Source: Pseudomonadota bacterium (lineage in GTDB: Bacteria; Pseudomonadota; Alphaproteobacteria; SP197). From it: a DNA stretch of 63,230 nucleotides. Location: assembly GCA_039028155.1 (NCBI GenBank), contig JBCCIS010000029.1:1-63230 (forward strand). Direction: 5' to 3'. Under the pieces are notes generated by a model. That model worked only from the letters and a program-made list of their open reading frames with translations. It had not been told where the DNA came from and ran no database searches. The translations under genes and the position numbers were made by a program. Shown one piece after another: positions 4,810 through 40,790 of the stretch; positions within the stretch are counted from its first letter, which is position 1; the number at the start of each line of letters is the position of its first letter.

Positions 4810-4886
4810 TGGTCGGAGCGGCAGGATTTGAACCTGCGACCTACGGTCCCCCAGACCGTTGCGCTACCAGGCTGCGCCACGCTCCG
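4810..4886 (-). tRNA. tRNA-Pro (anticodon GGG)
   Basis: On the minus strand this is a complete 77-nt cloverleaf: acceptor CGGAGCG/CGCTCCG, D arm with GCGCAGCCTGGTAGCGC, anticodon stem ACGGT/ACCGT around loop CTGGGGG (anticodon GGG), T arm GCAGGTTCAAATCCTGC. The discriminator A is followed by an encoded CCA (4812-4810). It decodes CCC and CCU. Confidence 0.97.
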
Positions 4887-36624: not shown

Positions 36625-36654
36625 TTGACAACCGGTAAGCGATGGTGATTTAAG
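36625..36654 (+). promoter_or_regulatory. Promoter for the SAM-switch / OsmC transcript
   Basis: A consensus TTGACA (36625-36630) is followed after 18 bases by TTTAAG (36649-36654). Initiation about seven bases later would put the 5' end of the RNA at the very base of the first aptamer's P1 stem (36662), which is a strong positional match. Confidence 0.65.
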
Positions 36655-36661
36655 ATTTGCC

Positions 36662-36718
36662 AGCGCCGATTTGATTGTCAGCTTGCGGGGCGCTCTAAAA
36701 ATACCAGCTAAAGCGCCG
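36662..36718 (+). promoter_or_regulatory. SAM-II-like riboswitch aptamer (first of two)
   Basis: The conserved SAM-II core is present in order: P1 5' strand AGCGCC (36662-36667), GATTTGA (36668-36674), GCTTGC (36681-36686), P1 3' strand GGCGCT (36689-36694, perfect 6-bp match), the A-rich TAAAAAT (36696-36702), and GCTAAAGC (36707-36714). The last element can form the P2 pseudoknot with GCTTGC. A promoter abuts it and an intrinsic terminator follows 12 bases later, so it should act by transcription termination on SAM binding. Confidence 0.82.
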
Positions 36719-36730
36719 GACCACGTTTCG

Positions 36731-36763
36731 AACCGCCCGGCACCACGCTGAGGCGGTTTTTTT
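36731..36763 (+). terminator. Intrinsic terminator of the first riboswitch
   Basis: AACCGCC (36731-36737) pairs with GGCGGTT (36752-36758) and runs into seven T. GCCGG at the aptamer 3' edge (36715-36719) can pair with CCGGC (36737-36741), which includes the last base of the terminator's 5' arm. That is a possible, short antiterminator. Confidence 0.85.
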
Positions 36764-36788
36764 GTTGGCTTGGTTCCCCGAAGGAACC

Positions 36789-36839
36789 CGCGGGATTTGA
36801 GGGGCAGCTTGCGTCCGCGTCACCAACCGCTAAAGCGCC
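36789..36839 (+). promoter_or_regulatory. Second SAM-II/SAM-V-like aptamer
   Basis: The same core recurs about 120 bases downstream: CGCGG (36789-36793) with CCGCG (36815-36819) as P1, GATTTGA (36794-36800), GCTTGC (36807-36812) and GCTAAAGC (36829-36836). P2 can be extended by GGC (36803-36805) with GCC (36837-36839). The A-rich linker of the first copy is absent. SAM-V shares the SAM-II binding core and is known in tandem behind SAM-II in marine alphaproteobacteria, so this copy may be of that class. Confidence 0.75.
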
Positions 36840-36887
36840 ACGGGAAGTCTCCCGTGGGCCCGTTCGATAACGGTGGTTCAAGGAGAC
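36838..36887 (+). promoter_or_regulatory. Expression platform: hairpin and ribosome site that can pair
   Basis: CCACGGGA (36838-36845) and TCCCGTGG (36850-36857) form an 8-bp hairpin with loop AGTC. Alternatively GTCTCC (36847-36852) is perfectly complementary to GGAGAC (36882-36887), which contains the Shine-Dalgarno sequence of the OsmC gene. The two pairings exclude each other, and the hairpin's first two bases also belong to the extended P2 of the aptamer. A further hairpin CCGTT/AACGG lies at 36860-36873. Confidence 0.6.
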
Positions 36888-36892
36888 GGACT

Positions 36893-37429
36893 ATGACCAC
36901 ATCATCATTCGCGTTCCGCGACGGCTTTAATGGCCTGCGCGATGCTTTCGAGACCGACCGCGAGACGGCAAAAGCAACGTTCAGCGCCACCAGTCGGCAG
37001 ATCGCCGGGCTGCACAGCCGCGTCAACACGCGCAATTTCTTCCTGGATGTCGACGAACCGGAAGCACTCGGCGGCACCGACAAGGGCCCGAACCCGGTCG
37101 AACTGGTGCTTGCGGCGCTGGCGTCATGTCAGGAGATCACCTATCGGCTCTACGCTGACCGACTCGGCATCCCGATCGATGGCGTCTCCGTGCATCTGGA
37201 CGGCGATATCGACTTGAGCGGCTTCACTGCCGCCAACGAGGACGTCAGGCCGGGCTTCACCGCCATTCGTGGCAGTGTGGATATCGACAGCCCAGCGCCG
37301 CTTGAAGACCTCGAACGACTAAAAGCGACGGTTGATCGCTACTGCCCGGTGCTCGACATCATCGGGGGCGAAACGCCCGTTAGCCTGGAAATAACCCCCG
37401 CGGCGGTACATATTTCGGCGGCGGAGTAG
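36893..37429 (+). CDS. OsmC family protein under SAM-riboswitch control
   Basis: A 178-residue OsmC/Ohr-superfamily protein: HSRVNTRNFFLDVDEPEALG, then DKGPNPVELVLAALASCQEI with the first cysteine, and VDRYCPVLDII with the second, the usual thiol pair. OsmC proteins reduce organic hydroperoxides or bind thiols; this branch is not Ohr. AAGGAG lies seven bases before ATG 36893; the open frame further upstream runs through the riboswitch. Its place behind a SAM switch and ahead of metY implies a role tied to methionine or reduced-sulfur supply, which is inference. Confidence 0.9.
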   Translation: MTTSSFAFRDGFNGLRDAFETDRETAKATFSATSRQIAGLHSRVNTRNFFLDVDEPEALGGTDKGPNPVELVLAALASCQEITYRLYADRLGIPIDGVSVHLDGDIDLSGFTAANEDVRPGFTAIRGSVDIDSPAPLEDLERLKATVDRYCPVLDIIGGETPVSLEITPAAVHISAAE

Positions 37430-37445
37430 CCGCCGCAGGGGTCCC

Positions 37446-37489
37446 GATGGGGGGCGGCGCCGGCAGGCTCCGCTCCCCATCTCTTTTTT
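37446..37489 (+). terminator. Terminator/attenuator between the OsmC gene and metY
   Basis: A 12-bp stem with one G-U pair (37446-37457 with 37470-37481), followed by TCTTTTTT. It should stop or attenuate the riboswitch transcript before metY. Confidence 0.82.
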
Positions 37490-37521
37490 ACGACCAACGA
37501 CAGACAAAGGATCAGGGCACC

Positions 37522-40790
<3,269 letters not shown>

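Follow-up and report, generated by a model that had tools for sequence, protein, structure and literature searches.

Tandem SAM-II-type aptamers of two subtypes ahead of an osmC-metY gene pair in an alphaproteobacterium: a probable two-stage SAM switch

In an alphaproteobacterium of the SP197 lineage (GenBank assembly GCA_039028155.1), the leader of an osmC-metY gene pair carries two SAM-II-type aptamers in tandem, and we consider it likely that this leader switches the osmC-metY operon off in two stages in response to SAM. That it is a tandem SAM-II switch of an already described kind, built from under-annotated subtypes, is well supported. The window, by which we mean the whole stretch of DNA analysed, comprises 63,230 nt of contig JBCCIS010000029.1, and all leader and gene coordinates given here refer to its plus strand.

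From 5’ to 3’, the leader (36625-36892) consists of a TTGACA promoter, aptamer 1, a terminator, a small hairpin, aptamer 2, a strong hairpin and a Shine-Dalgarno (SD) sequence, after which the osmC-family gene starts. The sigma-70-like promoter (36625..36654) combines TTGACA at 36625-36630 with a weak -10 box, TTTAAG at 36649-36654, and the predicted RNA start lies at about the first base of the aptamer-1 P1 stem. It is because of this weak -10 box that a simple promoter scan did not report the promoter at 36625..36654. A position-matched TTGAC(A) box is present in the leaders of eight out of nine relatives, most of which also have a -10-like box just 5’ of P1; in L042 the latter sits further upstream than in the other relatives. 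Aptamer 1 (36661..36719), of the subtype we call type 1, has a 6-bp P1 (AGCGCC 36662-36667 with GGCGCT 36689-36694), the third strand GATTTGA (36668-36674), AGCTTGC (36680-36686), the predicted SAM-binding strand GCTAAAGC (36707-36714) and a GCCGG tail (36715-36719). It is followed by an intrinsic terminator (36730..36763), identified by folding as a bulged GC hairpin and a T7 run. The small hairpin GGTTCC/GGAACC (36772..36788) lies directly 5’ of the aptamer-2 P1, on which it may stack; judged by eye, relatives keep its pairing with another sequence, GGTCC/GGACC. Aptamer 2 (36788..36839), of type 2, has a 5-bp P1 (CGCGG 36789-36793 with CCGCG 36815-36819), the third strand GATTTGA (36794-36800), AGCTTGC (36806-36812), the predicted SAM-binding strand GCTAAAGC (36829-36836) and a P2a strand, GCC (36837-36839), opposite GGC (36803-36805).

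The first-pass annotation of this DNA had placed two ordered cores about 120 bases apart, each within its own P1 stem, with a TTGACA promoter preceding the first core and a T-run terminator separating the two, and this layout was borne out. The pattern GATTTGA-N3..8-AGCTTGC-N8..30-GCTAAAGC matches exactly at 36668-36714 and 36794-36836, 126 nt from start to start. It is absent from 100 dinucleotide shuffles of the window and occurs only three times in the 5.3-Mb genome, where a reversed control pattern has no match. The third copy, on contig C38, lies upstream of a siroheme-synthase type protein (type read from its sequence). Elsewhere in the window, two tRNAs were seen on the minus strand, one truncated by the window edge at 1-58 (RF00005, 29.2 bits, 3’ end missing) and a complete one at 4813-4886.

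How would these elements act together? When SAM is plentiful, aptamer 1 would fold into its SAM-II pseudoknot as it emerges and withhold the GCUAAAGC-GCCG strand from the terminator, upon which most transcripts would end at around 36763. Transcripts that escape would go on to make aptamer 2, where SAM would lock the GCUAAAGC-GCC strand into P2/P2a. This would remove the foot of the P3 hairpin and free the anti-SD GUCUCC to pair with GGAGAC, which would block osmC translation. At low SAM levels, the GCUAAAGC-GCC strand would instead complete P3, so that the anti-SD is hidden and the SD stays open.

For the window copy, we infer the first of these steps, SAM-dependent termination with its anti-terminator, from the subtype and from relatives, since folding predicts the terminator in the window regardless of the state of the aptamer: its equilibrium probability is 1.00 both with and without the aptamer, and in the truncated window RNA the aptamer-1 tail is paired to the terminator side at only 0.18. 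Any SAM dependence of this step would therefore have to be kinetic. The same numbers could be taken to mean that only aptamer 2 works as a switch, aptamer 1 being a constitutive or weak attenuator ahead of a SAM-independent terminator. We regard this as unlikely, though it is the best of the alternatives considered here, as the contact nucleotides of type-1 aptamers are conserved across dozens of families, and relatives with this subtype (L038, the first copy of L043, L044 and L057) have a clean predicted anti-terminator formed by the SAM-binding strand, their terminator probability being 0.00-0.05 in the free state versus 0.80-1.00 with the aptamer strand occupied.

The proposed second step, by which SAM would control translation, is laid out around the P3 hairpin, CCACGGGA-AGTC-TCCCGTGG plus GC (36838..36859). 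Its loop and 3’ arm contain the anti-SD GTCTCC (36847-36852), complementary to the osmC SD GGAGAC (36882..36887). An SD had been noted next to the second aptamer; it is indeed downstream, and as it lies 46 nt beyond the core, ‘next to’ was a loose description. The GC-G-CC that follows GCUAAA in aptamer 2 has two alternative partners, either GGC-A-GC of the aptamer loop, as P2a (bound state), or, in the free state, GGGC at the P3 foot. In folding of the window RNA, pairing of the anti-SD with the SD goes from 0.00 in the free state to 0.93 when the 11-nt P2/P2a strand is occupied. Occupying 8-9 nt results in 0.00-0.01 and 10 nt in 0.42, and in this model the switch needs all of P2a. As such, the window's translation switch is clearly predicted by folding, in contrast to its transcription switch. 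All 15 homologues reach a bound-state anti-SD:SD pairing of at least 0.66, with the SD region mostly paired away, and for more than half of them folding gives extensive anti-SD:SD pairing even in the free state.

Covariation supports both P1 and P3. In class-wide alignments, P1 and P3 show compensatory changes on both sides in 9 of 13 pairs for type 2 and in 4 of 6 for type 1, counts that are tilted in favour of the structure by the alignments having been fitted to it. The observed P1/P3 covariation score was reached by none of 500 shuffles in either alignment. For P3 across the class, six of the eight pairs changed on both sides and 96.9% of cells were paired; slid controls of the class-wide alignments were only 23-63% paired. 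The anti-SD:SD pairing covaries more weakly than P1 and the P3 hairpin. In 13 unique loci of the family, pairing held at 101 of 117 positions, versus a mean of 92.2 with the SDs re-dealt (p 0.0017); the SD of each locus was chosen as the best match and relatedness was left uncorrected, which makes this test supportive rather than decisive. The P2a of type 2 is nearly invariant, and covariation is therefore uninformative on it.

Both aptamers are of the SAM-II type, as follows from their RF00521 matches, the lack of a SAM-V match and the retention of the SAM contacts, and they presumably bind SAM. At the gathering threshold, Rfam reported no riboswitch in the leader, and a permissive scan was therefore needed. 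In it, both copies matched RF00521 (SAM_alpha, SAM-II) best, with 33.4 bits for aptamer 1 and 29.1 bits for aptamer 2; genome-wide, the E-values were 1.9e-5 and 2.7e-4, respectively. Thus, the covariance-model search that the first-pass annotation had proposed gave sub-gathering yet significant scores for SAM-II and nothing for SAM-V. It should be noted that the 36-bit gathering cut-off is a curators' threshold and not a structural feature. Both window copies miss it, but homologues of the same subtypes pass (L129 at 42.8 and L055 at 38.0 bits for type 1, L154 at 37.9 bits for type 2), for which reason we read the low scores as probable divergence inside SAM-II, rather than failed membership. 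A canonical SAM-II aptamer of 77.8 bits is found on contig C3 of the same genome, upstream of a Cys/Met-metabolism enzyme that is 32% identical to MetY and that we labelled metZ by resemblance. The long-loop SAM-II family RF01726 was rejected for the leader at only 13.4 bits, and sub-threshold matches to Bp2_287 (antisense) and the sRNA RcsR1, which overlap aptamer and terminator, were taken as by-products.

The known SAM-contacting nucleotides are all kept: three U's in GAUUUG, two in CUUGC, and the U and three A's of GCUAAA. This list of contacts comes from the crystal structure of SAM-V, whose core is shared with, and superposes on, that of SAM-II (PMC6061858). The P2/P2a pseudoknot strands are nearly invariant, and are complementary in copy 2 (GGC-A-GC with GC-GCC) and more weakly so in copy 1. 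It is in P2a that the aptamers depart most from canonical SAM-II: this helix is AGC/GC, probably with a bulged A, and copy 2 lengthens it by GGC:GCC. Since RF00521 scores both subtypes far below canonical copies of the class (about 24-43 versus 55-88 bits), these variants could be thought to sense a ligand other than SAM, for instance SAH, or both. This is very improbable, given that the two uridines responsible for recognising the sulfonium charge are intact along with all other known contacts, and that targets such as metY, metZ, cysH and siroheme genes fit feedback by SAM. Least credible of all is a SAM-II aptamer followed by a SAM-V aptamer as in Pelagibacter, which would have the identical order of platforms (terminator, then ribosome binding site) and the common core (PMC6061858), as neither the genome, searched at E<=10, nor the leader scan gave a match to RF01826, and the SD, 46 nt off, pairs by way of a P3/anti-SD device distinct from the core. 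The earlier description of a SAM-II transcription switch followed by a SAM-II/SAM-V translation switch thus holds for the tandem and for the order of its platforms, and fails for the SAM-V option, the SD lying outside the aptamer's own 3’ helix.

With SAM-II-type aptamers as the preferred reading of both copies, how far do their subtypes extend? We built one covariance model, R2, on the first copies of the family and another, R1, on its second copies including P3. R2 scores aptamer 1 at 78.6 bits (E 9.3e-16) and R1 scores aptamer 2 at 102.8 bits (E 3.9e-18), each copy being among the training rows of its model. Because family sequences trained both models, the independent evidence consists of matches in other families. 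Within 385 genomes of the class, R2 has matches in 106 and R1 in 74 at E<=0.001. Pairs of type 1 and type 2 within about 250 nt (coordinates read by eye) are found in family f1, to which the relatives of the window belong, and in ten others (f29, f37, f65, f71, f79, f84, f105, f107, f124 and f125). Scores under the type-1 model fall into two separate bands, 70-81 versus 32-45 bits, in every family. This led us to reject recent duplication as the origin of the tandem, and these scores suggest that the pair is an old cassette.

The subtypes are also coupled to different platforms. According to a simple custom script, a terminator lies 3’ of the type-1 aptamer in 29 of 32 loci; for type 2, an SD and start codon lie 20-35 nt past a conserved GGGCCC in 19 of 31 loci, with more seen by eye, and a terminator-like match is present in 7 of 31. 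An osmC-metY pair behind a SAM-II tandem also occurs in family f37 (L108, L112, L123 and L125). We tentatively suggest, and with rather less than even confidence, that these are SAM-II subclasses of Alphaproteobacteria that diverged long ago and are each linked to one platform (a terminator for type 1, a conserved P3/anti-SD for type 2), that no fewer than 11 families combine them as a standard two-stage cassette, that the current Rfam model largely misses or barely reaches them, and that osmC is a recurrent member of the regulon. As a separate observation, three loci of family f135 (L103, L116 and L117) have a type-1 aptamer and terminator upstream of an osmC-like gene, with another type-1 aptamer some 700 nt downstream, ahead of the next gene.

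The osmC-family gene (36893..37429) encodes 178 aa with two cysteines, in SCQ and YCP contexts, and matches Pfam OsmC (PF02566) at 80.8 bits; its 78.4 bits for the NCBIfam OsmC_like_Se domain are under the cut-off of 95. The downstream metY (37519..38811) encodes an O-acetylhomoserine sulfhydrylase (NCBIfam TIGR01326, 622.9 bits against a cut-off of 495.1). In between, at 37390..37480, a hairpin spans the osmC stop codon and is followed by a terminator-like hairpin; the two are possibly part of operon control between osmC and metY. We infer that metY is co-regulated with osmC, and because of the terminator-like hairpin co-transcription is not assured.

In a survey of 61 genomes, every f1 genome had matches, and comparison of leaders, which the first-pass annotation had recommended, shows the tandem to be kept in nine f1 relatives (G001-G006, G012, G013 and G015), in some of which one of the two copies fell short of the survey threshold. 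Downstream of these tandems lie osmC-metY in G001 (same genus), G002 and G006, metY without osmC in G003, G012, G013 and G015, and sulfate-assimilation genes, cysH-like by resemblance, in G004 and G005. Four other genomes (G008, G010, G011 and G014) have a single type-2 aptamer before hemB, with no osmC or metY in between, and G007 resembles these hemB-type loci with a weak type-1 copy added. At L048-L051 and L054, such a type-2 aptamer ahead of hemB appears as an orphan riboswitch, at a site without osmC or metY; it possibly drives a short ORF or is a relic.

Relatives without osmC have kept coding sequence for the OsmC C-terminus (FTPAVASITAAE-stop in L053) in the interval that separates aptamer 2 from metY. 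In L052, the reading frame set by the type-2 SD runs for 45 codons and ends at the retained osmC stop. Homologues of the stop-codon hairpin and the terminator-like hairpin are found at L041, L042 and L047-L055, including relatives that lack osmC and even metY. On these sequences, the simplest reading is that osmC was ancestral and was then lost, its tail being retained. The stop-codon hairpin, of which genomes have a single strong copy, is restricted to family f1 and shows some covariation; we rejected it as a widespread RNA family, with only near-threshold matches beyond f1.

These findings provide an example of how SAM may be used at two levels of control through a pair of aptamers belonging to one class, and comparison has defined the platform for translation closely enough for point mutations to probe it. 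They also point to an annotation gap: many aptamers of both subtypes score too low for the Rfam cut-off, which leaves a portion of the regulon for methionine and sulfate assimilation (metY, metZ, cysH and siroheme genes) unannotated. Furthermore, that SAM switches recur ahead of osmC in several families of Alphaproteobacteria may point to a function of this OsmC group in sulfur metabolism. The literature we searched held no description of the split into two subtypes with a P3/anti-SD platform, nor, in a search for SAM-II with osmC or metY, of an osmC-metY pair behind SAM-II aptamers. Both the tandem architecture and SAM control of osmC are already on record (PMC9481103; PMC5069961), and the claim that an OsmC target is non-standard was overstated: the usual SAM-switch target metY follows, and in Candidatus Pelagibacter ubique osmC is part of a bhmT-osmC-ordL cluster behind a SAM-II/SAM-V tandem, its mRNA being 50-fold up under sulfur limitation (PMC5069961).

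Like SAM-II of RF00521, the aptamers described here combine P1 with an H-type pseudoknot and the GAUUUG third strand, GCUUGC and GCUAAA strands, are alphaproteobacterial, and precede methionine and sulfur genes, type 1 with a terminator. They differ in the AGC/GC P2a, which is longer in canonical SAM-II, in scores under or around the cut-off, and in the conserved P3/anti-SD translational platform that type 2 adds. The SAM-II of Sinorhizobium meliloti metA (PMC9373788) is likewise translational, with a further terminator past the first start codon, but is a single aptamer without osmC. In SAM-V, the SD lies directly 3’ of the core in an extended P2, unlike the SD 46 nt downstream seen here. The bhmT tandem of Pelagibacter (PMC11508383, PMC5069961) similarly places transcriptional before translational control and has osmC in the controlled cluster; its second aptamer, however, is SAM-V where ours is of the SAM-II type, and its genes are bhmT-osmC-ordL instead of osmC-metY. 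Further counterparts are found in PMC9481103, which counts 149 SAM-II/SAM-V tandems and 44 tandem SAM-II riboswitches; some of the latter, like the present leader, have two SAM-II aptamers with a terminator after the first and control of ribosome binding site access after the second.
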